In this document: positions 1 to 47,862 of the stretch, piece after piece
How the letters are laid out: the number at the start of each line of letters is the position of its first letter
Position numbering within the stretch: position 1 is the first letter of the stretch
Virus record (IMG/VR): IMGVR_UViG_3300046507_000176
Coordinates: 1 to 47,862 of that record
Source: a virus
Length of the DNA stretch: 47,862 nt
Strand: one strand, 5' to 3'
Notes under the pieces: generated by a model
Database searches by the model: none
What the model was told of the DNA's origin: nothing
Seen by the model: only the letters and a program-made list of their open reading frames with translations
Made by a program: the position numbers and the translations under genes

Positions 1-125
1 CTACACCATCATCTCGCGAGGCACTTGGCCACTTAGCGGCGCGGCAGATAATTGCCGTCTGCTGGTCAATGCGCAGTTGAAGGCATGGAAGGATGCAAAC
101 CGACCCGGTCTATATGCGGTCGCAG
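1..125. repeat. Terminal overlap, copy 1 of 2
   Basis: Identical base for base to 47738-47862. It lies inside the SGNH-hydrolase reading frame, which continues uninterrupted across the join. This is what a circularly closed assembly looks like when the contig is opened at an arbitrary place. It is not likely to be the physical terminal repeat, because T7-type ends lie outside genes. Confidence 0.97.
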
Positions 126-17021: not shown

Positions 17022-19400
17022 ATGGCCAAAGTGCCTGTCCAAATCGTTGCAAACTTGGTCCAGGGTGTTTCACAACAAGCGGCGCAGAACCGCAGGGATG
17101 CCCAATGTGAGTCCCAGTTTGATTGCGTCAATTCGGTACTTGAGGGTGTGGCAGCCCGCCCCCATGGAGACCTCATCAAGGTGTGGCTCGGCAGGGACCT
17201 CACCGGGGCTATGTTCTCGGAGACGGCTCACGGGACCGATGAGAACTACCTCACGGGTGTAACAAATGCCGGTGCTCCTTTCGCCATTGACCTCTCTGAT
17301 GGTACGGACTGCACGGTAACCATATCGGACCCCACTACGTATCTGGCGGCAGGTTCCGCATCCAGTAAGGACAAGCTGCGGACCCAGGTGGTGGATGACT
17401 TCACGTTCATTGGCAATCGCTCTGTGGTGGTCGCAATGGCCAGCACAACGTCCACCCCTAAGGTCAACGAGGCACTGGTGTTCGTGAGGGCAACAGCCTT
17501 TGACTGCACCTACAAGATTACGCTCTCTGGCCCCGGCTCAGCTTCGGCTACTGTCACCACAGACCCATCAACGGTCACTGGCACAAGCTCTATAGCCTCA
17601 GACCTCCGAACAGCTCTCAATGGCGTGGACGGATACTCTTGCTTCCAGCATGGCTCAACGCTCCGTATTGCCAGAGCTGATGGTGCTGCCTTCACGGTAG
17701 ACGCTTCGGATGACGGTGGCGATGCCAACATGCCTGTCTTCAACGGCTCTGCTTCCAGCTTCGACAAGCTGCCCGCCCGAGGCTTCTCCAATATGGTGGT
17801 CAAGGTTGGGTCTGATGATGGGAATGTAGCCAGCCAGTTCTACATGAAGTTCGTTGGCGATCCGTCCACAGGCGCTTGGCAGGAGACCGTAGGCCCAGGC
17901 ATCACGACTGACCTTGATGCCGCCACTATGCCCCACGCTCTGGTGTCAACAGGGTTCCGAACCTTTGAGTTCAAGAGGCTGGCATGGAGCTCCCGCATTG
18001 CCGGGGACGATGATACGGCCAAGGTTCCCAGCTTCGTAGGCAAGTCAATCCAAGACATGATCTACCACCAGCGGCGCTTAGGCTTCATATGGTCTGCCGG
18101 TGTGGTGTTCTCCAAGACGGACTTCCCGTTTACCATCTTCCCCGACACTGTGCAGACCGTCTTGGCTACCGCTCCGGTGGACATCAAGGTCTCCAGCGGG
18201 GATAAGCGTGGGGCTTCCGTTCTGGACTTCGGCTTACAGGTCCAAGAGAACCTCTACCTGTGGGCTCAGCGTTCACAGTTCAGGGTTAGCTCTGGGCAAG
18301 ACCCTTTCCGCCAAGACACGGTGGAGGTTCTTCCCAGCATGGCCTACCAATACGCCCCAGCCGCCTATCCACTGCCCGTAGCCAACTTCGTGTTCCTCGC
18401 TACGGATGCCGGGACGTTCGCCTCTCTGCGTGCCCTCCTGTATTCCCAGACGCGGCTCTCCGGTGACACCGATGTGACCAGCCACGTGGGCCAGTACATT
18501 GCCGCAGGGGTCACAGACCTAACCGCCTCCGATACCCTCAGGTACGTCTTTGTGCAGAGCGATGGGGACCAAGATGTCCTCTACCTGTTCAACTACACGT
18601 ATGACGGCGATCAAGGTTTCATCCAAACGGCCATCAACACGTGGCGCATCCCCGGTGGGCAAATCCTCTGGTGCGGGCTGAAGGACAACTCCCTACGCCT
18701 CTTCCAGCAGCGGCCTGAGGGCGTGGTCTTCCTGAAGTTCGATTTGACACCTCAGGCCAAGGACCCGATTGCAGGCGCTACGTACAACACGAGGCTGGAC
18801 TTCAGGGTGAGCGAAACGGGTGTCACTGGGCTGGCCTATGATGCCGATGCCAAGACGACAAGCTTTAAGCTGCCCTACAAGCCCACCGGACCAGACCTAA
18901 TAGTCGCCACCAGCGCGGACAAGACGGGCGGCTACACCCGAGGCCGCATCTTTGAGATTGTCTCGCAGGCCAACGTTTCGGATGGGCAAGTGGTCACCGT
19001 GAAGGGAGACCTCACTGGCTACCAGTTCTATGCTGGCCAGAGGATCACCGCAGAGAGAACCGAAAGTGAGTTCTTTGTGCGTGGGCAGCAAGGGGCCATG
19101 CCTGTGGACGAGTTGACAGTCAATAGGTTCTTCCTGTGGGTTGCGGCTACAGGCTACACCCGCGTGGAGGTCAGTGCTCCCAACAAGGCCACCAAGAAGT
19201 ACGAATTCACTGGGCAGGTATTGGGCGGCATAGGGGCTCACACAGGGACGCCTACGCCATCTAATGGCCACGTCAATGCTCCGATAGCGGACAAGTCCAA
19301 GAATGCAACGATACGATTGGTCAATGACAGCTTCCTCCCAAGCTACTGGCAGGCGGCAGCCTATGACTATACCGCTGTGGGGTGGAGTGCTCCATCTTAA
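17022..19400 (+). CDS. Tail tubular protein B (T7 gp12-like nozzle)
   Basis: A 792-residue protein (T7 gp12 is 794). The N terminus IVANLVQGVSQQAAQNRRDAQ and DCVNSVLEGVAARP is the hallmark of the family. It forms the hexameric nozzle closing the tail and binding the fibres. Composition is Gly/Asp/Ser/Thr-rich and beta-structured. It is followed closely by the internal virion genes. Confidence 0.95.
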   Translation: MAKVPVQIVANLVQGVSQQAAQNRRDAQCESQFDCVNSVLEGVAARPHGDLIKVWLGRDLTGAMFSETAHGTDENYLTGVTNAGAPFAIDLSDGTDCTVTISDPTTYLAAGSASSKDKLRTQVVDDFTFIGNRSVVVAMASTTSTPKVNEALVFVRATAFDCTYKITLSGPGSASATVTTDPSTVTGTSSIASDLRTALNGVDGYSCFQHGSTLRIARADGAAFTVDASDDGGDANMPVFNGSASSFDKLPARGFSNMVVKVGSDDGNVASQFYMKFVGDPSTGAWQETVGPGITTDLDAATMPHALVSTGFRTFEFKRLAWSSRIAGDDDTAKVPSFVGKSIQDMIYHQRRLGFIWSAGVVFSKTDFPFTIFPDTVQTVLATAPVDIKVSSGDKRGASVLDFGLQVQENLYLWAQRSQFRVSSGQDPFRQDTVEVLPSMAYQYAPAAYPLPVANFVFLATDAGTFASLRALLYSQTRLSGDTDVTSHVGQYIAAGVTDLTASDTLRYVFVQSDGDQDVLYLFNYTYDGDQGFIQTAINTWRIPGGQILWCGLKDNSLRLFQQRPEGVVFLKFDLTPQAKDPIAGATYNTRLDFRVSETGVTGLAYDADAKTTSFKLPYKPTGPDLIVATSADKTGGYTRGRIFEIVSQANVSDGQVVTVKGDLTGYQFYAGQRITAERTESEFFVRGQQGAMPVDELTVNRFFLWVAATGYTRVEVSAPNKATKKYEFTGQVLGGIGAHTGTPTPSNGHVNAPIADKSKNATIRLVNDSFLPSYWQAAAYDYTAVGWSAPS

Positions 19401-23219: not shown

Positions 23220-26200
23220 ATGGACCCCTCCGAGTTCGCAAAGACGTTTGGTGTATCATCGCCACAGCAGACCCCCGAGCAGACCCAGAACTCGGCCCCT
23301 CAGGTAGACATCCCGGCCACGCTCTCGGCAGCTCAGAACCTTGTGGGCTCCATGCAGCAATCGCAGGATGCCGGGGCACCACCAGCGCCAGACCAGCAAG
23401 CCACAGACCCTCAGGCACCAATCCCTCATGGTAGCTGGGCGGATGCGTTCTCGCGTCTTCCCGGCATCCTTGGTGACAGTGCTGCCGAGGAGTCTCAACC
23501 TGCGCAGGCGGCTGCTGGTGGTGCCCTTAAGTCGGTCTTTGAGACCAAGGACTTCCTGTTTGGCGATACGCCACGCGAGCAGCAATCTCCCTTCCGCCAG
23601 AGCGTTGAGGATGATGTGGACCGGCTCCGTGCCGAACACCCTTTGCTCAATGGCCTCTCGGCTGGCATCGGGCAATTCACCGTGGCCATGATGGGTCTCG
23701 GAAAGCTGGGCATGGTGGCGAAAGCCTTGCCGTATGTGGGCGAGGGGGTTGCTGCTGTGGAGGGCATAAAGGGCGGCTCTACGGCGCTTGAGGCTGGCAA
23801 GGCGGCTCTTGCCGGTGCCATTGCGTTCGATCCTCACGAGGCCCGCCTATCGAACCTCATTCAGGATACCCCTCTGGCCAACCCCTTCAATGCGTGGCTC
23901 TCTGCCAAGCCGGGGGATAGCGCCGCTATGGGACGCCTGAAGAATGCCATGGAGAGCCTCGGGATGGATGCGGCCATCATCGGCACATTCACTGGGGGTC
24001 TGAAGATATGGAAGTACCTGAAGGCTGGCGATACGCAGGCAGCAAGCCGAGCCGTTACCGATCTTCAGGCCGAGCAGACCGCACACGTAGCGCAGGAGCA
24101 GCAAGCCAATGCAATGCAGGCATCACAACAGGCTACGCAGGGACAGGAAGCTCAACCCCCGGCTGGACCTGAGGCTGTACCTCAGGCTAGCGAACCTGGA
24201 GCTGGGCCTACCGGAACCGAGCCCGTGGCAACTGGAGTTCCTGAAGGAGTTTCACCAGAGGTCAATCCGAATGCGACCCCGGAGGCAGCGAAAGCGGGGC
24301 AAGAGGCCGCTCAATCCGCCGACATCCCGGTAGACATCTCGTCAACCCCCACAGCCGCCACAGAGCAGGCCGGTGTAGCCAAGCCTCAAGCCTTCAAGCC
24401 GGTCACAGACTTCAAGCCCAGCGAAACGTCCTCCATCCTAGACGACCTCCCGGTGTCTCTTGAGAACGCCGAAAAGGACTGGGACGCGATGGAGAAGAAT
24501 GGCGGCTGGGCGGGGACCATGGAGGCGGGCCAGAAGCTCAGTCCCGACATGGGCACCTTCTATGACCGCTTCAAGACGGACACCGATGTGGACCACATGA
24601 TTGCCCTTGCAGTCAGCCACAAGTCCGAAGAGCTAGCGGCCAAAGGCTTCAGGGGAACGCTTACGGATGCCAAGCTCCAGCGGCAGGTTAACGCCTTTGC
24701 TTCCCTTGCTGGTGTAGATCCAGCTGGGCTTGCGGGTATCCTCCAGCAGGCAGGCGAGGCGAGCAGGACGCTCACCGCCAAGATGATCGTTGTGGGGTCC
24801 CTTGCTGCCAAGACCTTTCAGGATGCCTCATTGATGGCCATGCGGCTCAAGCTTGGGGACTTCTCGGAGTTTGGCAGCATGGAGGCCATGAAGCAGGAAA
24901 TCTCCAAGCGGTTCTCAATCGCCACGACTTTCCTCAAGCTCACCGATGATATCCGCGCTCAGGGTGGCCGTACGCTTCGCGCCAATAGGGGGAAGCCTTT
25001 TGACCCCTCGCTGTTTGAGGGCGTCACAGGGGACCGCTTCTATGATCTTCTCGCCCAGGCACAAGGCCGTCCCCAAGAGCTGAAGCGCCTTGCCGACCCA
25101 TCGCTGTACCGCAAGATACTCGATACGGTTAGCTACATGCGCATCTCCTCGCTGGTATCCGGCCCAAAGACCCAGCTTATCAACATCATGACCAACGGGT
25201 ACATGCTCGGGGCTCGGCCTATGGAGCGTATCCTTGGGTCTGTCCCCGGTGCCTTGACCGGCAGTGACGCCAGTAAGGCCCTCATCAAGGAGAACCTTAG
25301 GCAATACTCCTATATGGGGTCTGCCCTGTATGACGGCTTCGGGGAGGCCGTGAAGGCTTTCACCCGCAATGACGGCATCCTCAAGCCCCACAGCTCGGAA
25401 GCTTTTGGCCCTAATGCAAGCTGGCAAGTTCCCGGTACGCAGGCATTCAATGCTAGCTACTTCAAGCCGTGGGACAGCGTGCCGAACCTCATGTACAACG
25501 CCCTGTCTGTCCCGCTGTCGGCTGCCGGTGTGGCTCCTCGCCTCCTCGGTGGTGTGGACGAGTTGGTCAAGCAGATCACCTACAGGTCCAAGCTCGCAGC
25601 TCGGGCCAATATGGAGGGCACAGAGCAGGCCGTAAGGGCTGGGCTCAAGGGTAAAGCCGCAAAGGACTACATCAAGAGCTACACCGCCACCCGGCTGGAC
25701 AATGCGTTTGACGCTGAGGGGCGGGGTGTTGACCCTGAAGCCCTGCGTGAGGCCAACATTGCGACCTTCCAGCAAGACCTCTTGCCGGGCACTCTGGGCA
25801 AGAACATCCAGACCCTCATCAGCAATGACAAGACTCAGCTCATTAGGCTCATCCTGCCATTCGTGAAGACCCCGACGAACGTCATACGGTACGGCTGGAA
25901 GATGACGCCCGGCCTCAATATGCTTCAGGAGGAGTATCGCCAGATGCTATCAGGAAGCTTGGGGCAGGAGGCCAAGTCTCAGGCAATCGGGCAGATGTCC
26001 ATGGGGGCACTCTTCATGGGGGCCGCTAGTTACCTTGGTGCTCAGGGGATGATAACGGGTGGTGGACCTTCCAACCAAGGCCTAAAGTCCCAGCTCCTCG
26101 CCACCGGCTGGCAGCCTTACTCAATCGTGGTCCAGCATGATGACGGCACAAAGTCCTACATCCCGTTCAACCGCTACGATCCTGTTGGCCTGCCTCTCGG

Positions 26201-27065
26201 TATCATTGCGGATATCCAAGATGCTATCCACATCATGGGCGAAGATGGCGAGAACACGCCGGAAATCTCTACGGCAATCGGAGCGTTGGGCCAATCGCTC
26301 GCCAAGCAGTTTACCAGCCGCACCTATCTGCTGAGCTTGAACCAAGCGCTGGACGCTCTTCAGGACCCCGGCAAGCGTGGCGAGCTGTTCTTTGGAAGCT
26401 TGGCACAGAGCATGGTCCCGTACAGCGGAGCCACACGCCAGCTCTCCACGGACCCCTACCTCAGGGATGCCCGCACGATTGCTGACAAGATGACGCAGGC
26501 GATACCCGGCCAGTCGGAAAGCCTACCGCCTAGATACAATTGGCTCGGCCAGCCGGTACTCAATCGGCAGGGCTTGTGGTCTGATGACAATGGGACGTTG
26601 GTCGATCAGGAAACCCTTAGGCTCGGGCTTGAGGGCGGCGCTGTGATGTCTCCCCCATCTCCTACGTGGAACAAGGTGGACCTTCGGAACATCACGCTCA
26701 CCACCGGGGAGAACGCCTACGTGGCGTACCAGCGGTTGGCCGGGAAGCCTGGGCCTAACGCCAAGTCTCTAAGGGACGTGGTGGCCAACATGATGAGGAC
26801 TTCCGGCTACAAGAGGGCTCCTGATGGAGACCTCGGGACCAAGGGCACCAAGTCATGGCTTCTGGCGGGCATGGTCAACAAGTACCGTGAGGCTGCCTCT
26901 AGGCGTATCCGTGCGGACAAGAACGTACGGGATGCCCTGCTGGCTGCACAGCGCCGCGTGGTGGACCATTACGCCCACCTGAAGCAGACCCCTCAGTCCC
27001 AGGATGGCCAAGGTTCCGGCTCGGTGCAGAACATCATTGATGGCTTCGGGGCCAGCAGTAAGTAA
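23220..27065 (+). CDS. Internal virion protein D-like (T7 gp16-like)
   Basis: A 1281-residue protein in the gp16 position (T7: 1318). The N terminus is Pro/Gln-rich low complexity, followed by a Gly/Ala-rich hydrophobic region (VAMMGLGKLGMVAKALPYVGEGVAAVEG) and long helical stretches; MSMGALFMGAASYLGAQGMI near residue 930 is another hydrophobic segment. T7 gp16 begins with a lytic transglycosylase; I see no such motif here, and the activity appears moved to the gp15-like protein. It likely forms the channel across the inner membrane during ejection. Confidence 0.85.
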   Translation: MDPSEFAKTFGVSSPQQTPEQTQNSAPQVDIPATLSAAQNLVGSMQQSQDAGAPPAPDQQATDPQAPIPHGSWADAFSRLPGILGDSAAEESQPAQAAAGGALKSVFETKDFLFGDTPREQQSPFRQSVEDDVDRLRAEHPLLNGLSAGIGQFTVAMMGLGKLGMVAKALPYVGEGVAAVEGIKGGSTALEAGKAALAGAIAFDPHEARLSNLIQDTPLANPFNAWLSAKPGDSAAMGRLKNAMESLGMDAAIIGTFTGGLKIWKYLKAGDTQAASRAVTDLQAEQTAHVAQEQQANAMQASQQATQGQEAQPPAGPEAVPQASEPGAGPTGTEPVATGVPEGVSPEVNPNATPEAAKAGQEAAQSADIPVDISSTPTAATEQAGVAKPQAFKPVTDFKPSETSSILDDLPVSLENAEKDWDAMEKNGGWAGTMEAGQKLSPDMGTFYDRFKTDTDVDHMIALAVSHKSEELAAKGFRGTLTDAKLQRQVNAFASLAGVDPAGLAGILQQAGEASRTLTAKMIVVGSLAAKTFQDASLMAMRLKLGDFSEFGSMEAMKQEISKRFSIATTFLKLTDDIRAQGGRTLRANRGKPFDPSLFEGVTGDRFYDLLAQAQGRPQELKRLADPSLYRKILDTVSYMRISSLVSGPKTQLINIMTNGYMLGARPMERILGSVPGALTGSDASKALIKENLRQYSYMGSALYDGFGEAVKAFTRNDGILKPHSSEAFGPNASWQVPGTQAFNASYFKPWDSVPNLMYNALSVPLSAAGVAPRLLGGVDELVKQITYRSKLAARANMEGTEQAVRAGLKGKAAKDYIKSYTATRLDNAFDAEGRGVDPEALREANIATFQQDLLPGTLGKNIQTLISNDKTQLIRLILPFVKTPTNVIRYGWKMTPGLNMLQEEYRQMLSGSLGQEAKSQAIGQMSMGALFMGAASYLGAQGMITGGGPSNQGLKSQLLATGWQPYSIVVQHDDGTKSYIPFNRYDPVGLPLGIIADIQDAIHIMGEDGENTPEISTAIGALGQSLAKQFTSRTYLLSLNQALDALQDPGKRGELFFGSLAQSMVPYSGATRQLSTDPYLRDARTIADKMTQAIPGQSESLPPRYNWLGQPVLNRQGLWSDDNGTLVDQETLRLGLEGGAVMSPPSPTWNKVDLRNITLTTGENAYVAYQRLAGKPGPNAKSLRDVVANMMRTSGYKRAPDGDLGTKGTKSWLLAGMVNKYREAASRRIRADKNVRDALLAAQRRVVDHYAHLKQTPQSQDGQGSGSVQNIIDGFGASSK

Positions 27066-34972: not shown

Positions 34973-35209
34973 ATGTTTACGCATGAGGACAACCGGTATC
35001 GTTACGCGGTGAATGTGAAGACATACAAGGACACTGCGGCATCTTCATGGACACAACACGCCACGCTAGGTGGGGCAATACGCTCCGCTAGGTCGCTTAT
35101 CGGTGGCCGCAAGTACCGCATAAAGGACATGGAGACCTGCCTAATCTGGGACAAGCACACGAACGCCTTGCTTAGCGTGAATGCTGCCGAAAGGCTCCTC
35201 AACGCCTAG
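34973..35209 (+). CDS. Early protein, 78 aa, unknown
   Basis: GAGGAAAG ribosome site. Basic, soluble product with YRYAVNVKTYKDTAASSW and LGGAIRSARSLIGGRKYRIKD. Its stop lies at the left edge of the 50-bp hairpin repeat. No family recognised. Confidence 0.65.
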   Translation: MFTHEDNRYRYAVNVKTYKDTAASSWTQHATLGGAIRSARSLIGGRKYRIKDMETCLIWDKHTNALLSVNAAERLLNA

Positions 35210-35255
35210 AGCTACCCTTAGGCCTACCTCACCGTAGGCCATTGGCTAACCCTAG
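35206..35255 (+). repeat. 50-bp hairpin repeat, copy 1
   Basis: CTAGAGCTA then CCCTTAGGCCTACC..., differing at one base from 35587-35636. Inside, GGCCTAC and GTAGGCC form a perfect seven-pair stem with loop CTCACC. It sits in the untranslated gap before the 101-residue early gene. There is no T-run, so an RNA-processing site, such as the RNase III sites between T7 early genes, is a better guess than a terminator. Confidence 0.85.
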
Positions 35256-35586: not shown

Positions 35587-35636
35587 CTAGAGCTGCCCTT
35601 AGGCCTACCTCACCGTAGGCCATTGGCTAACCCTAG
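35587..35636 (+). repeat. 50-bp hairpin repeat, copy 2
   Basis: 49 of 50 bases match 35206-35255, including the whole GGCCTAC/GTAGGCC stem. It starts three bases after the 101-residue gene's stop and lies in an 136-base gap before the next gene. A shorter relative of its right half (TGGCTAACCATAGG) is at 34849. Confidence 0.85.
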
Positions 35637-36683: not shown

Positions 36684-37289
36684 ATGACCAATACCAAGAG
36701 CACACTTACGGCAGGCGTAACGGAACACCTCAGCGATACACCCGACATGATCGGCTTCACCGGCAAGACCATCGTTATCACCAAGCAGGGCGAAGAGGGC
36801 GGCTTTGAGGTTGATGCCTTCAGCGGCGTGGTGCTTCGCCACAGCAAGAACGCAGAGACCGGCCAGTGGGAGGGCATTGAGCTACCTGCATGGGCTGAAG
36901 GCCTCACCAATGCGCTGCTGACCGAACGCCACATCTTCTACACGTCTCGCCTCGGTGGTCTCTACACGGACGCCATGAAGCAGCCCGAAGCGCTGTGCTA
37001 CGAGGACCTCTCCTGGGTCCACGTCACGCCGCTGGAAGAGCCCAGGCAGAACGAAGAGACCGGCCAGATGGAGCACGTGGAGCTTTCCGAGGTGGAAGCC
37101 GACCACGAGTTCCGCATGGGCATCATCGCAGAGGTCACCGGCATTGCTGGCGATGTGGACCTCGCTGAGGGCACATTCGGCAAGGATGCGCTTACGGTCG
37201 CCATCGAGCGCGACAATATGCGAACCGAAGAGGAGCTCGCTTCCATGGAGCAAGCCTCGCGGGAGGGCTTCAAGGCTGTCAACGGGTAA
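36684..37289 (+). CDS. Acidic early protein, 201 aa, unknown
   Basis: A strongly acidic protein with optimal-looking C-ending codons, its own upstream gap and its own terminator, so it is probably made in quantity. NAETGQWEGIELPAW and NEETGQMEHVELSEV are an internal near-repeat. The C-terminal 50 residues are helical and Glu-rich. High acidity and isolated strong expression recall T7 early proteins that bind host proteins or mimic DNA, but no family is recognised. Confidence 0.75.
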   Translation: MTNTKSTLTAGVTEHLSDTPDMIGFTGKTIVITKQGEEGGFEVDAFSGVVLRHSKNAETGQWEGIELPAWAEGLTNALLTERHIFYTSRLGGLYTDAMKQPEALCYEDLSWVHVTPLEEPRQNEETGQMEHVELSEVEADHEFRMGIIAEVTGIAGDVDLAEGTFGKDALTVAIERDNMRTEEELASMEQASREGFKAVNG

Positions 37290-37787: not shown

Positions 37788-38675
37788 ATGCAGACTGAGA
37801 CCCTAGACCAAGCCTTAAGCCGCATCTGGCAAAACGAATGGCGGCACATGCGGAGCGGCCCCACCTTGAGAAGCCAAGCGGAGATAGCCGTACGGGCCAT
37901 ATCGGTGGTCCATGAGTTTGGCGTATTGCCTCACGTAGTGGGTGGAGAGCGGTACATCAACAGGGAGCTCAAGGTTAGCGCTGTGGAGCCTCACCACATC
38001 CAGCAAGCTACGGCCTATTGGTATTCCGAAGGTGTTAGCCCAGCCACGATCACCAAGCGCCTCAACTGCTTGTCTAAGCTGGGGGTCAACGTTGATGGCT
38101 GCCGCGTGAAGGTCCCCAAGCAGCTCAAGTGGCACCTGAAGGAGAGTGACAAGCCAAAGGTGCTGGCATGGTGCCGTGAGCAATTCGAGAAGCATCGAGT
38201 GCCTTGGCTTGACATCCTAGCGGACTACATTGAATGGACCACAATCACCGGCCTCCGCATTGAGGAGAGCTTGTGGCTAGACCTGGGGAACGACTTTTCG
38301 CCAGACTATTCGGCTGTCTCAGTGCCCGGTTTGAAGACGGCCACCAGTCAAGCCACTTTGCCGCTTGGTGCTGAGGCATCTGGAGTAGCTTTCCGCCGTA
38401 GCTTCGCGTCTACCAGCTTGATGTTCCCCATTCCGTATAAAGACCTACAGGAAGCGTGGGAGCTCGTCCGTGAGCACTTCGGCTGGCAGCATGACCCTAC
38501 AGCCACCCTCAAGGCCCTCCGACGCTCAGCAGCCCGCTATCTCCACGTGGACTGCGGAATGCCGCTCCATATGGTCCAGCAATACCTCAGGCACGAGAGC
38601 ATGGACACCACGCTGGAATACTTGCGGCTGGCTGGCGGGTATGGCACTGAGGAGATGAGGCGGTATCTGAGATGA
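37788..38675 (+). CDS. Tyrosine recombinase, divergent
   Basis: A 295-residue protein. The catalytic domain has Arg157 in TITGLRIEESLWLDL, then a C-terminal box with R245 in LKALRRSAARYL, H269 in YLRHESMDTT and the nucleophile Y278 in LEYLRL. The first His of the usual HxxR is Lys242. The N-terminal 110 residues resemble a SAM-like core-binding domain. It could be an integrase, a dimer resolvase or a regulator of DNA form. It belongs to the plus-strand early operon and is unlike the minus-strand integrase in size and sequence. Confidence 0.85.
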   Translation: MQTETLDQALSRIWQNEWRHMRSGPTLRSQAEIAVRAISVVHEFGVLPHVVGGERYINRELKVSAVEPHHIQQATAYWYSEGVSPATITKRLNCLSKLGVNVDGCRVKVPKQLKWHLKESDKPKVLAWCREQFEKHRVPWLDILADYIEWTTITGLRIEESLWLDLGNDFSPDYSAVSVPGLKTATSQATLPLGAEASGVAFRRSFASTSLMFPIPYKDLQEAWELVREHFGWQHDPTATLKALRRSAARYLHVDCGMPLHMVQQYLRHESMDTTLEYLRLAGGYGTEEMRRYLR

Positions 38676-38945
38676 GAAAGGCCGCTTGGTTCGCCCTAGG
38701 GCTTCTCGTGGCTGGGATGTTCTTCCAGCTCGGCATCTTGGCTGTGGTCCACCTGCTTGGGCCTTAGGTGTCATCCCACCAACAAGACACTTGGGGCTGT
38801 GTAACCTGCACAGCTCCTCCATGGCCTCAGCTCGGCCAGCATCGCGCTTATCCCTTTCGCTGGCCGAGTGGCTCAACCAGCCCCAGAACAGCGCCAGCAC
38901 TATGGCAGCCATAAAGAATTCACTTAGGCCCAGGTTGCGTAGCAT
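38526..38945 (-). CDS. Possible minus-strand membrane protein after integrase
   Basis: ATG 38945 overlaps the integrase end by 26 bases, with GAAGAAGG just before it on that strand. The first 60 residues look real: membrane segment LSEFFMAAIVLALFWGWLS, a charged helix (SERDKRDAGRAEAMEELC) and a short Cys end. The later part is antisense to the recombinase 3' end and low quality, so if the gene is real its true 3' end may be the whole frame only by chance. Confidence 0.35.
   Translation of the reverse strand: MLRNLGLSEFFMAAIVLALFWGWLSHSASERDKRDAGRAEAMEELCRLHSPKCLVGGMTPKAQAGGPQPRCRAGRTSQPREALGRTKRPFSSQIPPHLLSAIPASQPQVFQRGVHALVPEVLLDHMERHSAVHVEIAGC
38672..38767 (+). CDS. Small membrane peptide, 31 aa
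   Basis: Coupled by ATGA to the recombinase. MRKAAWFALGLLVAGMFFQL and LAVVHLLG: one membrane segment after a basic start. Function unknown. Confidence 0.45.
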   Translation: MRKAAWFALGLLVAGMFFQLGILAVVHLLGP

Positions 38946-40590
38946 CCTTCTTCGTTCCCAGATCGTACCTCGGGAACTTGGTGATAGCATCTTGCTTGGC
39001 TTTTAGCGAGACCCTGCCGTACTTTCCACCCTCAGTGCTTGCAGAATGCCCGCAGATTGCATCCAAAACCTTCTCCTGTATGTCCACATCTCGGCCCATG
39101 GTCTTGAAGGTGTGCCTCCAGCCGTGGTTAGGCGCAACATTGGGGTCTGAGACCACCTTGCGGATATGCCTTCTGAGGTTTTCCCGCTGCTGGTTCGCCA
39201 TGGTGGCCGTGAGGGTCTGGCCCTTAGGCACAGCCACAAAGAGATAGCCAGCTTTGGCACTCTTCACGAACGTCTCAAGGCCCAGCGCAACGAGATGCTC
39301 ATGGATAGGCACCACGCGGAGCTCTTTGCCCTTCACAGTGCCAGCCTCGGGTGTGATCCTTAGGACGCCATCTGTGATATCCTGCTTGCGAAGCTGAATG
39401 ATTTCCGTAACGCGAGCCCCGGTGTAGGCACAGAGCCACGGGACCCAGTAGAATGCCTCATCGATCTTCCGCCAGTCGCTCGTAGCCAGCAGGATAGCCT
39501 TGACCTCATCCGCCGTGAAATCCTTATCGCGTAGCTTCTTGTCCTTGCCTACCATGACCACAATGCCATCCGTAGGGTTGGATGCCAGACGCTTGTCCGT
39601 CACAGCCCACTCAAAGATGGTCTTCAAGCCAGCCAGCTCGGGATTGCGAAATGCCTTGGGCTTGAGGAGCTTGCCTGTGTGTGGATTGGGCGTGGTCAAG
39701 CGATGGTCCTTGAAGCGCAGCATATCGTTGTGCGTAATGCGGGCCGCATCGTCATGCCCCATGAAGGCACCAAGCCGGTTGATGGCCCGACGATAGGACA
39801 GGTAGGTATTCTCGGCCAGCCCAGCCGCCTTGGCAATCGACCACCAGCTTTCCAAGAGCCCCTTGAGGCTCACCTGGGCAACCGTAGGCTGGAACGTCTG
39901 GGTCTCCCACTTCGGGAACATCTGGAGGCGCTCATCTGGCCGGTAGTCTCCAAGGGCGTAGCGTGCTGATTGCTGGAGGGCTTCACCTTTGAGCCGCCTC
40001 AATGCCTCAGCAAGACGCTCACGCGAGGCCACAGTTACGCGAGGAACGCCGTGCTGGGCCAAAAGGGATGAGACCACTGCGTCGTAGCTCTTCGCTTCCA
40101 GAGAGCCGTCTGTGTGGGCTGGCATATCGTCTGGCCTGATGCCTGCGACCACAAGCGACACAGCGTTCAACATTTCGGCCTCCTCGATGGCTCCAAGGGG
40201 AGTTAGAACCGGCTCAGGATCAAACAGATAGTTGAGCGTATTGTCTGGCGTGGAGTTGGCAGACCCAGCGTAGAACACCCCGGCCAGCGCTGTGATTTGC
40301 TTGTGGGTGAGCTCAAGGGGCTGCTCAGTGCGGAGGCCGTGAAACCAGCGCTCAATGCAGTCTAGGGCAACCGCATGTCTCGCCTTGGCTTCCCGTGGGT
40401 CTCGTGTCCGCAAGGAAAACCTAATGCTCTTCGTTTTGGGTTTGATCTTGATGACAATGCCGTCCTCGCCAAGCGGAATGGGCAGCGAAGAGCCAGCAAC
40501 ACGCTCCTTCAGATCGTCGGGAATGCGCTTCAAAAACTGTAGGGTTTCAACCCCATCTCTTCGGCTTGGTCTAGCTATTCGCAGTCCCAT
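38920..40590 (-). CDS. int: Phage integrase, tyrosine recombinase
   Basis: A 556-residue integrase on the opposite strand from nearly all other genes. The catalytic residues are Arg in AYTGARVTEIIQL, Lys in GTVKGKELR, H489/R492 in NHGWRHTF, H515 in CGHSAS and nucleophile Y524. The N-terminal 350 residues include a core-binding domain (AENTYLSYRRAINRLGAFMG). The ATG at 40590 has GAGGGGG five bases upstream on its strand. The gene implies site-specific integration in a T7-like phage; relatives with integrases exist among some marine T7-like phages. No repressor gene is recognised beside it. Confidence 0.95.
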   Translation of the reverse strand: MGLRIARPSRRDGVETLQFLKRIPDDLKERVAGSSLPIPLGEDGIVIKIKPKTKSIRFSLRTRDPREAKARHAVALDCIERWFHGLRTEQPLELTHKQITALAGVFYAGSANSTPDNTLNYLFDPEPVLTPLGAIEEAEMLNAVSLVVAGIRPDDMPAHTDGSLEAKSYDAVVSSLLAQHGVPRVTVASRERLAEALRRLKGEALQQSARYALGDYRPDERLQMFPKWETQTFQPTVAQVSLKGLLESWWSIAKAAGLAENTYLSYRRAINRLGAFMGHDDAARITHNDMLRFKDHRLTTPNPHTGKLLKPKAFRNPELAGLKTIFEWAVTDKRLASNPTDGIVVMVGKDKKLRDKDFTADEVKAILLATSDWRKIDEAFYWVPWLCAYTGARVTEIIQLRKQDITDGVLRITPEAGTVKGKELRVVPIHEHLVALGLETFVKSAKAGYLFVAVPKGQTLTATMANQQRENLRRHIRKVVSDPNVAPNHGWRHTFKTMGRDVDIQEKVLDAICGHSASTEGGKYGRVSLKAKQDAITKFPRYDLGTKKDATQPGPK

Positions 40591-41031
40591 TTTGACCCCC
40601 TCAAGTCACACAGTCATGTTACACAGTCGAAGGTTTCTAAGCATTTGCAAATACGTTCTTATATGCTACATAGGCGATAGCGCAGCAATAGGGAAGTAAC
40701 GGGAAGTTATATCTGCTGGCCACGTCCCGCTTGATTTCATTACGAAATTTTGGGGCATTTGCCAAGCATGTAACACACTCCTGCTACACACTTTTTTGCC
40801 CTCAGTTCTGCGACTGGACGAGTAGCTAGACGCCTAGCAAGGCACATAGGAAGGAATACGGCTGTGCATAGGGCTACACTTGATAAGATACCCCTAGTAA
40901 AGACCCTCTTTTATGTTGACGCTGAGTTAGGCGCTATGGTACGTACGGAGATAAGGCGAGACCCTAATACAGGGCTTACCTTTACCAGCAAGACCATAGT
41001 GAATTCACAGAAACCATAAGGAGTGTAGACT
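40591..41031. other. AT-richer intergenic region with attP-like repeats
   Basis: 441 bases between the integrase start and the next plus-strand gene, no credible ORF. Repeats: ACACAGTC at 40608 and 40621, within CATGTTACACAGTC (40615) and its relative CATGTAACACACTC (40767); GCATTTGCAAA (40641) and GCATTTGCCAA (40755); ATTTGCAAAT (40643-40652) is a perfect palindrome. This arrangement could be integrase arm and core sites, making it the best attP candidate. TTGACG at 40916 is a -35-like hexamer without a clear -10. A sequence like TTTTGCYCTCAGTTCT occurs here (40794) and at 33615. Confidence 0.5.
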
Positions 41032-41478
41032 ATGACTACCCCGAGTACATCACCGAAGGCCCCCCAAACGCCCTCTCAGTCTGCAAAGACCGAGTGGGAA
41101 TTCACCGCAGACTTTGACGTTGGGCTGCCTCCCCCTGAGGCTCCCCGTGTGACCCGCTCCACGGAACTGCCCTTCGCCGCTAAGTTCTTCAGCCCCGCCA
41201 TGCAGGCAGCGCTTGAGGGGAAGCAGCCCCACAAGTTCATACCTAAGGCGTTCTTCACAGGGCGTGCCGATAAGCCCGAAAAGGTGGACGGTTCGTACAT
41301 GAAGACGAAGGTGCGGGAGGCATTCAACAAATGGCTAAAACTACAGGCTCAGCCGGTTCGTGAAGCCCTCGCAATCCTCCAAGTCGAGCGTAAAGGCGAC
41401 GAAGGGGACTACAAGGAGCCCGGCGTTTCGGTCTGGATTGTTACCGCCAAGCCGAAAAAGGCACCACCCGCAGTATGA
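41032..41478 (+). CDS. Early protein before RNA polymerase, 148 aa, unknown
   Basis: AAGGAG lies nine bases before ATG 41032. Pro/Ser/Thr-rich N terminus, then WEFTADFDVGLPPPEAPRVT, LPFAAKFFSPAMQAALEG, and a basic C-terminal half ending in Lys/Pro. It could bind nucleic acid or a polymerase. It is followed by a terminator and then the RNA polymerase gene. Confidence 0.65.
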   Translation: MTTPSTSPKAPQTPSQSAKTEWEFTADFDVGLPPPEAPRVTRSTELPFAAKFFSPAMQAALEGKQPHKFIPKAFFTGRADKPEKVDGSYMKTKVREAFNKWLKLQAQPVREALAILQVERKGDEGDYKEPGVSVWIVTAKPKKAPPAV

Positions 41479-41692: not shown

Positions 41693-44431
41693 ATGGACAC
41701 GTTGGAGTTACAGGAGGACCCCTTCATCGGGGAAGACGGTCCTCAGGAAACCATTGAGATAATCGATGATTGGAAGCACGGAGACGACCCGCAGGCCCAT
41801 CCCCTGTGGGACGAGCAATTGAAGCTAGAATATGGGATGATGCGGTCTGGGGCCAACAAGCTGCGAGACCAAGTGATTACCGCCACGGAAGACCGGCAGC
41901 TCACCCAGGTGGCAGTAGTTCGGGGTCTCATGGTGGACTGGCTGCCGGGTGTCGCCCAGACACTCAAGGACTGGTGCAGGGTGTGGGACAATCAGCGGGG
42001 CGTAAAGCCGCGCATCTTGCCCCTCATGAAGACCATAGACATGCATATGGCCGCGCTTGTGGGTCTCCGCGAGATCATGGACCGCATCGGCCAGAGCAAG
42101 AACACAGTGCTCAACATCGCGATGGAGATAGGCCGCACCATTGAGTATGAGCAGCGCGTTCGTGCCTGGGAGAAGGGCTCCGAAAAGGAGCGGGCTCTGT
42201 GGTTCAGCGAGCAGAAATCCATGCAGCGTGACAAGGTGACGACTGGACACCGCCGCCTCCGCAGCATCAACCGTTTCAACCATCACCTTAAGGAAGGCAA
42301 CTTCGATAGCCTCACGTGGGACAATTGGTCCACCGATACGCTATTCCGTGTAGGCTGGGAGGTCATGGATGCCGTTGTGCGTCACACCGGATGGTTTGAG
42401 GTGCAGGATGACCCGGAGCACGTCTACAGGAATGGCGGGAAGAACAGCCCTAAGCTGCTGCTTGTCGTCAAGAGTGGCCTCACCGACTGGCTATCCAAAG
42501 CGCTGGACTACGCTGAGATTAACCAGCCGGATTTCAGGCCCACCATTATGCCACCCAAACCGTGGACCAGCAGCCGTGACGGCGGATACTGGACGGCCTA
42601 CGTTAAGCCACCCCGCTTGGTTCGCTTCAAAGCATCTCAAGAGAACCAAAAGGATAACGCAGCAGATGAGTACGACGCTCTGGATATGCCACATGTGTAT
42701 GCTGCGGTCAATATGCTACAGGATACTGCCTATAGGGTTAACACAAGGGTACTAGATGTTTTCTCCCGAGTGTGGACGGAACTAAGGTGGTCAAGCGATA
42801 AGGCATACTTACCGGAGCTCAGGGACCGCGACTTGCCACCCACCACGGCCCGCATGCAGCTCCACCGTGAGCTCAACCGTGGGAGGCGAGGGGAAGACAG
42901 GACGCCGCCCGATGAGGAGACCGCTCAGGAAATCTTTGAGTGGAAAAAGAAGGCATCACCCATCCACGCCTTTAACGGGAAGCGGGCCGCACGCACCAAG
43001 GCTTGCTCGGCTACCCTGAGGATCGCCACTGAGTTTGCCAAGTATGACGCCATCTACTTCCCCCACATGCTTGACTTCCGGGGACGTATCTATCCGATAC
43101 CAGCCTACTTGCAGCCTCAGGGTAACGACTTGGCGCGTGGCCTTCTGACCTACGCCACCGAGGCACCCATCACGCATGCAAACGGCGGTATCAAGTGGCT
43201 GGCTATATGCTTGGCTTCCAACTGGGGTCATGACAAGAAGTCATTCACCGAGCGTGGGCAATGGGTCTATGACAATGAGGAGCTCATCCTCTCCATAGCC
43301 GAAGACCCTTATGCCAACGATGAGTGGTTCCGTGCAGACAAGCCTTGGCAAACCCTTGCGGCCATCTTTGAGTGGGCAGAGTACCGCAAGGCTGAGGCCC
43401 GAGGGGAAACCTTCATGAGCTCATTGCCGGGCATGGTGGACGGTACATGCAACGGCATCCAGCACCTCAGCGCCATCATCAGGGACGAAGTGGCGGGCGA
43501 ATACGTCAACCTCATCCCAGGTGAGAAGCCTCGGGACATCTACAAGTTTGTCGCTGAGGACCTTCAGGCCAAGCTTGAAAGGATCGAACGGGCAGGCGGC
43601 TCACAGGGAGAGCTTGCCAAGTGGTGGCTGGAGCTCTGCGACCACGATCTACCCCGCACGTTGACCAAACGCCAAGTCATGGTGCTGCCTTATGGAGGCA
43701 CGAAGGACAGCTTCTTTTCGTACACCCGCAAGTGGCTGGATGATAAGGACCCGGTGACCGAACGGCTGGACATTGAGGCTGCCAAAGCGAGAACCGAGAA
43801 GATCACCTTCTTGACCAACCTGATGTGGGATAGCGTCAAGGAGAACGTGAGGGCAGCCGAAGAGGTCATGACGTGGCTTCAGGATTGCGCAAGGGTGGCC
43901 GCTCAGGAAAACCAGCCAATCTACTGGGTCACTCCGAGCGGCTTCACCGTCCGTCACTTCTATGGTGTGCTCAAGGATAAGCAGGTTGATCTAAAGCTTG
44001 ATGGTCAACGCTGCCAAGTTCGGCTGGGCGAGAGAACCGCCACGCTGAGCGTAAAGGAACAGCTTCAAGGCATCTCCCCGAACTTCATCCACTCGCTGGA
44101 CGCAAGCTGCCTTGTGGATTGTCTTAATGCCTGCCGTGATGTCGGCATTACGAGCTTTACTTCCGTGCATGACGCCTACGGCACGCATATGGCCAACATG
44201 GATGCGCTCTCTGCGCTGCTCCGTGAGGCTTTCGTGAAGACCCATGAGGTGGACGTTCTCGGCCTTTTCCGTCAAGCCTGCATCGAAGTGTTACTTCCTG
44301 TGCTCATCCTGCGTGACGGTCTAGACCCGCTTGAGGCGTTCGAGAAGGCTGATGGCATGATGCCCAAGCCTTTGGCCCACGGAAAGCTGGACCTTAAAGC
44401 CGTTCTCCGCTCGGAATATTTCTTCGCCTAG
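41693..44431 (+). CDS. Single-subunit DNA-directed RNA polymerase (T7 gp1-like)
   Basis: A 912-residue polymerase (T7: 883) that transcribes the phage middle and late genes. Catalytic motifs: DGTCNGIQHLSA (D583), KRQVMVLPYGG (Y667) and SVHDAYGTH (D827), matching T7 D537, Y639 and D812. FRGRIYPIPAYLQPQGNDLARGLL is the palm/thumb signature. The C terminus ends ...EYFFA, like T7 FAFA. GGGGG at 41683 is the ribosome site. It lies after the integrase region and before the middle genes, as in T7. Confidence 0.98.
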   Translation: MDTLELQEDPFIGEDGPQETIEIIDDWKHGDDPQAHPLWDEQLKLEYGMMRSGANKLRDQVITATEDRQLTQVAVVRGLMVDWLPGVAQTLKDWCRVWDNQRGVKPRILPLMKTIDMHMAALVGLREIMDRIGQSKNTVLNIAMEIGRTIEYEQRVRAWEKGSEKERALWFSEQKSMQRDKVTTGHRRLRSINRFNHHLKEGNFDSLTWDNWSTDTLFRVGWEVMDAVVRHTGWFEVQDDPEHVYRNGGKNSPKLLLVVKSGLTDWLSKALDYAEINQPDFRPTIMPPKPWTSSRDGGYWTAYVKPPRLVRFKASQENQKDNAADEYDALDMPHVYAAVNMLQDTAYRVNTRVLDVFSRVWTELRWSSDKAYLPELRDRDLPPTTARMQLHRELNRGRRGEDRTPPDEETAQEIFEWKKKASPIHAFNGKRAARTKACSATLRIATEFAKYDAIYFPHMLDFRGRIYPIPAYLQPQGNDLARGLLTYATEAPITHANGGIKWLAICLASNWGHDKKSFTERGQWVYDNEELILSIAEDPYANDEWFRADKPWQTLAAIFEWAEYRKAEARGETFMSSLPGMVDGTCNGIQHLSAIIRDEVAGEYVNLIPGEKPRDIYKFVAEDLQAKLERIERAGGSQGELAKWWLELCDHDLPRTLTKRQVMVLPYGGTKDSFFSYTRKWLDDKDPVTERLDIEAAKARTEKITFLTNLMWDSVKENVRAAEEVMTWLQDCARVAAQENQPIYWVTPSGFTVRHFYGVLKDKQVDLKLDGQRCQVRLGERTATLSVKEQLQGISPNFIHSLDASCLVDCLNACRDVGITSFTSVHDAYGTHMANMDALSALLREAFVKTHEVDVLGLFRQACIEVLLPVLILRDGLDPLEAFEKADGMMPKPLAHGKLDLKAVLRSEYFFA

Positions 44432-47162: not shown

Positions 47163-47862
47163 ATGCCCTTATGGAGTGGACCTTTGGGTCCACGCGGTAA
47201 CACGCATAATGCCGCCCTCGCCGCAATACAGGGTGGGGGTGTCTTGCCTGACGTCCCGCTGCCTTCGCTGCCGCTTGCCGCTGGCGCAAAGTTTGCCGAA
47301 TTCGGGCACTCCTTCGCCGCACGTGGCTATAACAGCGCAAGTGCATCAGGCGTTCTCACCGGCAGCACCAGCTACATGCGCGGTGCCTATTCGTGGATCA
47401 AGTTCTTTGATCAGCGCTTCAATGTTGACTTCTGGCCGTCAGCGAACTTGCAGAGCTGGGATAGCGTTGCGGGGGGTACGGCACTGAACGGCGCAGCCTT
47501 GGGCCTTTCCGGTGATCGCCTTACATTCGTTCAGACCACCGCACCCGGTCTGCTTTACCGGATGCCTTATCTGCGCTCCAACGGCCCCGATATCGTCGGC
47601 ATTGTGATCGGAACTAACGATATCGAAGATCTGGTCAACACCCAGGGCATGAGCGCCTCGGATGCTGCGACGACAATCCTCGCCAACTACGATCAGCTGC
47701 TCACGTCCATCTTTAAGGCCGGCATCTGGGCAATCCCCTACACCATCATCTCGCGAGGCACTTGGCCACTTAGCGGCGCGGCAGATAATTGCCGTCTGCT
47801 GGTCAATGCGCAGTTGAAGGCATGGAAGGATGCAAACCGACCCGGTCTATATGCGGTCGCAG
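47163..47862 (+). CDS. SGNH/GDSL-type hydrolase, N-terminal part (gene ends at 925)
   Basis: First 700 bases of a 1500-base gene; the rest is at 126-925 after the overlap. AAGGAGGG precedes ATG 47163, an ideal ribosome site. Residues 1-40 are Gly/Pro/Leu-rich (a possible attachment segment). AEFGHSFAARGYN holds the catalytic Ser50 in the block I position, with GHS instead of GDS. VGIVIGTNDI holds N152/D153 (block III). The catalytic Asp and His are in the other part (D253, H256). It is probably a virion-attached esterase. Confidence 0.87.
   Translation, partial: MPLWSGPLGPRGNTHNAALAAIQGGGVLPDVPLPSLPLAAGAKFAEFGHSFAARGYNSASASGVLTGSTSYMRGAYSWIKFFDQRFNVDFWPSANLQSWDSVAGGTALNGAALGLSGDRLTFVQTTAPGLLYRMPYLRSNGPDIVGIVIGTNDIEDLVNTQGMSASDAATTILANYDQLLTSIFKAGIWAIPYTIISRGTWPLSGAADNCRLLVNAQLKAWKDANRPGLYAVA
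47738..47862. repeat. Terminal overlap, copy 2 of 2
   Basis: Identical to 1-125. The real genome length as a circle is therefore 47,737 bases if the overlap is an assembly join. Confidence 0.97.

Follow-up and report, generated by a model that had tools for sequence, protein, structure and literature searches.

In textbooks, T7-like phages exemplify the strictly lytic life cycle. The temperate T7-like phage LUZ100 encodes a tyrosine integrase on the plus strand just upstream of its RNA polymerase gene (PMC10134795), and the integrases of Pasto, HTVC019P/HTVC022P, BB8 and RHEph21 occupy the same slot. These phages have one integrase each, mostly with an arm-binding domain and the His of the HxxR motif, and often with a MarR regulator and a tRNA-Leu gene adjoining. 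In the open papers that we searched, nothing relevant was found on two integrases in T7-like phages; only temperate members with a single integrase were described.

Several other tyrosine recombinases and related enzymes offer points of comparison. Cre of phage P1 resolves dimers of the phage genome (PMC8138268) and, like Xer, has a two-domain build without an arm-binding domain. MrpR of SPbeta is a repressor with the tyrosine-recombinase fold that is used in lysogeny, and it has lost the Arg, His and His/Trp positions of the active site (PMC10516654). The archaeal SSV1-type integrases have the active-site pattern R..KXXR..Y (PMC8371274), and in type IB topoisomerases the position of the second His is likewise occupied by Lys (PMC2747268).

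The DNA analyzed here (the window) is the IMG/VR virus record IMGVR_UViG_3300046507_000176, 47,862 bases, which represents a whole phage genome of approximately 47.7 kb and is probably complete, because an exact direct repeat of 125 bp is present at both ends. Genes were called mechanically as ORFs. Searches with Pfam and PHROGs recovered, in T7 order, genes for RNA polymerase, primase/helicase, A-family DNA polymerase, T7-type SSB, portal, capsid, tail and terminase, as well as an endonuclease and a lysozyme; with its single-subunit RNA polymerase and this gene order, the window is a T7-like phage (Autographiviridae). Only two of its proteins contain PF00589. These are the convergent tyrosine recombinases reported in the initial annotation, where positions and lengths had been given correctly, and their stop codons are 244 bp apart (Table 1).

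Table 1. Features of the window referred to in the text.
Feature	Positions	Strand	Evidence or remark
Terminal direct repeat, left copy	1..125	+	exact, 125 bp
201-aa gene, upstream of small recombinase	36684..37289	+	homologues in L019, L020, L202, L132, L133
Small tyrosine recombinase, 295 aa from ATG	37788..38675	+	PF00589 28.0 bits (cut-off 27.1)
31-codon membrane-peptide ORF	38672..38767	+	ATG overlaps the small-recombinase stop (ATGA), read from the sequence
Large integrase, 556 aa	38920..40590	-	PF00589 39.4 bits (cut-off 27.1)
Non-coding stretch 5' of large integrase	40591..40864		candidate attP, by comparison with Aminobacter
ORF of about 51 codons, GTG start	40865..41020	+	...GAMVRTEIRRDPNTGLTFTSKT...; similar in L202, L133, L019
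148-aa gene, neighbor of small recombinase	41032..41478	+	tblastn matches in L202, L133, L019, L020, L209, L210, L211, L212
T7-type single-subunit RNA polymerase	41693..44431	+	PF00940 3e-91; phrog_414 1.5e-213
Terminal direct repeat, right copy	47738..47862	+	exact, 125 bp

Both proteins scored above the PF00589 cut-off and matched the PHROGs "integrase" family phrog_1 (1.5e-11 for the small protein and 1.3e-36 for the large one); the small protein does not fall outside the tyrosine recombinases. Judged by its length and alignment, it consists of a core-binding (CB) and a catalytic (CAT) domain, and alignment with the sister proteins described below shows no arm-binding domain at its N-terminus. 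The residues first noted in it (R157, R245, H269 and Y278, with Lys242 in place of the HxxR His) were all correct, and K183 completes the active site; five of the six catalytic residues of R-K-H-R-H/W-Y are present, and Lys242 replaces the second His. All nine small recombinases, at 41-56% identity to that of the window, have R157, K183, K242, R245, H269 and Y278 without exception. Because this active site is invariant, the small protein probably still cuts DNA. Lys242 would be compatible with catalysis by analogy, since Lys stands at that place in both SSV1-type integrases and type IB topoisomerases; with the SSV1-type enzymes the small protein has the active-site pattern alone in common.

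The small protein resembles Xer and Cre in its two-domain build, but differs from them in its Lys, in scoring below the NCBIfam Xer cut-off (18 bits against 220) and in that no dif- or lox-like site was found: across four phages, nothing convincing was seen as a conserved inverted repeat of this kind near the small gene. The inspected portion of a comparison of shared non-coding sequences did not contain a site for the small protein either. ARAGORN found no tRNA in the window, and next to the small gene no 3' end of a tRNA was seen. Compared with the slot integrases of LUZ100 and the other phages named above, whose position and strand it shares, the small gene thus lacks the arm domain, the His and the tRNA, and it has a second integrase alongside. 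An AlphaFold2 model of the small protein was weak (mean pLDDT 69.7, pTM 0.43); when it was submitted to Foldseek, Tn1549 Int and Cre came out on top, XerA/XerD lower and the MrpR structure 8a0a likewise among the matches, with TM scores of only about 0.3.

The large protein has the domain order of a DUF6538 N-terminus, a SAM-like core-binding domain and a PF00589 catalytic domain (Pfam), with all six catalytic residues, R-K-H-R-H-Y. It shares this order, the full active site and, in its relatives, the place beside att with integrases of the DUF6538 type from bacterial islands and phages; unlike those, the window's is carried by a T7-like phage and lies inverted beside a second recombinase.

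Scans of IMG/VR with each recombinase as a single protein yielded no relative, and relatives surfaced through alignments of the integrase and of the RNA polymerase, which served as the anchor gene for locating them. The expectation that two recombinases in one T7-like phage would be unusual agrees with our survey, a small sample of records that may be fragments, in which 1 of 43 T7-like records contained two PF00589 proteins. In this record (L112/G010, 436-2793) a slot-type integrase converges on a P22-like one with an AlpA-like gene upstream. The record has no end repeat and the second gene is at the contig edge, so the pair may be two elements, and we take it at most as a possible second case.

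Within the annotated phage collection the small protein matched only T7-like slot integrases, at 22-27% identity and best in Bordetella phage BB8, and all of those inspected lie just upstream of the RNA polymerase gene. A single slot integrase is present in LUZ100, RHEph21, Pasto, Lo5R7ANS, ProddE and BB8, the closest RNA-polymerase relatives inspected; Stappia phage SI01, another such relative, has none. In two close relatives from IMG/VR, found with an RNA-polymerase profile (L019 and L020, RNA polymerase 50-52% identical), the only PF00589 protein is homologous to the large integrase over its full length (40%), and neither the small protein nor a relic of its gene was found in them. Another, L202/G441 (47,284 bp, RNA polymerase 58% identical), has a small recombinase at 55% identity and, by PF00589 and three profiles, no other tyrosine recombinase, so that the small one may be the integrase there. 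G441 is a linear contig without an end repeat, and one end is therefore possibly missing.

In each of four further relatives (RNA polymerase 37-40%) a single PF00589 protein was found. We built a quick recombinase tree without bootstrap, in which the small family is monophyletic (SH-aLRT 98) and the proteins of these relatives, among them the lone integrases that L226, L228 and G460 have in the slot, are its sister group (SH-aLRT 100), and the large proteins form a separate clade (SH-aLRT 100); a second analysis agrees on both clades. As had been suggested, the two recombinases differ in type. The sister slot integrases (L226, L228, L231 and G460) have the arm-binding domain and read TLRALRR, with Arg at the His position, whereas the small family reads ATLKALRR, with Lys. 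Sister proteins that still have the arm domain already carry Arg there, so loss of the His preceded loss of that domain. Since the small family is sister to arm-domain integrases in the same slot, its sequence relationships indicate that the small protein is probably the old integrase of this lineage after loss of the arm-binding domain. We also considered the small gene as a newcomer or recent insertion, and ruled this out on the grounds that it occupies the integrase slot of the sister phages.

When bacterial genomes were scanned, once, with an alignment of RNA polymerases, two loci came up, prophages in Aminobacter and Methylobacterium, both with host junctions. Relatives of the window are thus integrated in chromosomes, contrary to the alternative of strictly lytic relatives without host junctions that the initial annotation had raised. 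The order in Aminobacter sp. HY435 is host phaC, large integrase, homologue of the 201-aa gene, small recombinase, homologue of the 148-aa gene and RNA polymerase, after which the prophage (L133) is broken by the contig end; its remaining half is on contig C21. The att core is the 10-bp sequence TATGTCAATA, which spans the phaC start codon. By comparison with congeners, attB reads ...GATAGTATGTCAATAAAAGG..., attL reads ...AGTATGTCAATA followed by TCCCGG, and attR reads ...CATTATGTCAATA followed by AAAGGCC; the phaC side has a match in eight congeners, and in all four that were compared the site is uninterrupted. The large gene lies beside the junction, with the core within about 55-110 bp upstream of its start, and for this reason we place the attP of the window most likely in the non-coding stretch listed in Table 1. 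TNACACA-type direct repeats in 40591-41031 were examined as integrase arm sites and rejected, as they were not above random windows. The Aminobacter prophage enters (G034:C22 ~5150) exactly at the start of phaC, which encodes polyhydroxyalkanoate synthase; the ATG is restored and the upstream region is replaced, so lysogeny might alter PHA synthesis.

In Methylobacterium ajmalii, a colinear T7-like prophage (L132, G033:C106 17560-68093) has 22-bp att repeats at 17560 and 68072 and interrupts a terminase-like gene that joining of the flanks would restore. The interrupted gene is apparently part of a different prophage, so that one prophage would be nested in the other. An unrelated third integrase, of the arm type (MSVYKPAKSPYYAYDFQ...), adjoins attL at the left end; the small recombinase lies 10 kb further in, ahead of the RNA polymerase gene, and no homologue of the large integrase was found near it. 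The window record contains no host junction of its own. The window phage is temperate, belonging to a lineage with known lysogens in Hyphomicrobiales, and its relatives suggest a host in the same order.

Members of the small family were present in 5 of the 398 Hyphomicrobiales genomes sampled. Besides Aminobacter these are four genomes (L209, L210, L211 and L212, corresponding to G130, G093, G193 and G164) in which the small recombinase sits in an island. Each of these islands encodes a protein of 1.5-1.6 kaa that is similar to window 23220-27065, with weak matches to DUF3990 and to polyvalent-protein ADP-ribosyltransferase, together with a homologue of the 148-aa gene, which is common to the phages and the tRNA islands. 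The large integrase is present in three of the four (39-42% identical to that of the window), and the fourth has another integrase. In those three it adjoins tRNA-Leu, with the small recombinase kilobases inside. In three of the four cases the islands, roughly 20 kb long, are bounded by direct repeats of 17-21 bp, including two of the three with the large integrase at tRNA-Leu (17 bp and 21 bp). In one island (L211, 8635-10574) the small recombinase gene is present twice, as tandem copies that have diverged. Neither a phage RNA polymerase nor a capsid gene was seen near the island small recombinases, and the islands are possibly phage satellites or mobilizable islands. Among their ORFs, two islands seemingly contain a serine resolvase, recognized by eye; a resolvase role of the small protein would be redundant there.

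Because its gene adjoins the host junction in the Aminobacter prophage and tRNA-Leu in the islands, we regard the large protein as the integrase. Its gene is on the plus strand upstream of the 201-aa gene homologue in L019, L020 and Aminobacter and inverted downstream of the small gene in the window; given this change of place and strand, it is the mobile one of the pair. The small gene is on the plus strand upstream of the RNA polymerase gene in four phages (the window, L202, L132 and L133), and among the integrated copies examined, namely two prophages and four islands, there is not one with a junction at it. In the relatives, position shows that integration is done by the large protein, or in M. 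ajmalii by a different integrase. A separate role for the small recombinase, proposed at the outset, is in keeping with these junctions, since another recombinase borders them in the relatives.

The remaining sequences around the pair were examined as well. The product of the 201-aa gene had no Pfam or PHROG match. The short ORF preceding the 148-aa gene was recognized as a conserved nucleotide stretch, taken as coding and translated by hand. Intergenic DNA of the early region contains a 50-nt imperfect palindrome, with perfect inner arms of 7 bp and a 6-bp spacer, in direct orientation at 35206-35255 and 35587-35636; looser look-alikes are found between early genes of L019, L020 and G441. We rejected it as a recombinase site in view of the similar palindromes in L019 and L020, both of which are without the small protein. 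An RNA consensus attempted on these palindromes gave no structure, and they are possibly RNA-processing hairpins.

Our favored reading, which we consider rather likely, is that the large protein is the integrase and the small protein is a shortened old integrase, probably active as an accessory recombinase on a simple site of its own. In this scheme the large DUF6538-type protein would join a host site to an attP lying immediately 5' of its own start, a step shown by its position in the relatives and extended from them to the window phage. The small protein would descend from the integrase that the lineage had retained in its usual place ahead of the RNA polymerase gene, and would have lost its N-terminal arm-binding domain and come to carry Lys for the second-position His, with the other catalytic residues strictly conserved. 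It would have been kept as an accessory enzyme that most likely resolves or circularizes the extrachromosomal genome or helps excision. What is observed is the conservation of the active site, the fixed slot, the kinship and another recombinase bordering the junction; its catalytic activity, separate site and biological step are predictions from these, of which an accessory recombinase acting on another site seems the most likely. The Cre/Xer-like CB and CAT build would suit a resolvase or circularizing role, and it is not diagnostic of a resolvase, because Pelagibacter phages with short enzymes integrate too. Against an accessory role we count the failure to find a site, the presence of the small protein alone in G441, its absence from L019 and L020, the apparent serine resolvase in two islands and the lack of a host junction in the window itself.

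An alternative is that each of the two recombinases is an integrase with its own attachment site, the small one continuing to integrate at its attB, as slot integrases of other T7-like phages do, and the large one adding a second target, with each sufficient alone. We think this unlikely. G441 has the small protein only and L019 and L020 the large one only, the sister phages rely on the slot integrase alone, the slot integrase of Pelagibacter phage HTVC022P is equally short (290 aa), and short integrases do integrate, as in the example of Brujita cited in PMC8138268. However, neither the two prophages nor the four islands examined have a junction at the small gene, and no tRNA is present in the window or beside that gene, in contrast to LUZ100, S28-C10 and Pasto.

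It is similarly improbable that the two genes have no special partnership, integrase cassettes simply being shuffled and the window having caught an old and a new one together. The patchy distribution (both, small only, large only, or small with an unrelated integrase) and the differing place and strand of the large gene between the window and its kin are what shuffling would produce, but the small gene occupies the same slot in four phages, and it occurs together with the large or another integrase in both prophages, in the window and in all four islands. Its active site is also invariant, which would not be expected of a dispensable relic.

That the small protein has turned into a DNA-binding regulator of lysogeny, like MrpR of SPbeta, we consider very unlikely. 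This reading has the MrpR precedent (PMC10516654), the appearance of 8a0a among the structural matches, the place of the small gene just upstream of the RNA polymerase gene and the lack of a recognized lysogeny repressor in the window in its favor. MrpR and the small protein have the fold and a temperate phage in common, but the catalytic residues lost in MrpR are kept in all nine small recombinases, including the nucleophile Tyr, and in the islands no phage RNA polymerase was seen near the small gene.

Returning to the accessory recombinase, a broader form of this reading is that the arm-less, Lys-for-His recombinases are the constant member of a two-recombinase system, with exchangeable integrase partners in T7-like prophages and Hyphomicrobiales tRNA islands, and that they carry out a second site-specific reaction (circularization, multimer resolution or directional excision) that would be new to T7-like phages. 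We offer this tentatively and lean somewhat against it. At the least, this is a lineage with provable host junctions in which integration appears to have passed to a newly acquired enzyme and the old integrase to have been kept, intact but shortened. It would provide a tractable case of the demotion or repurposing of a phage integrase, and would naturally test Lys as a substitute for the second active-site His in a bacterial tyrosine recombinase.
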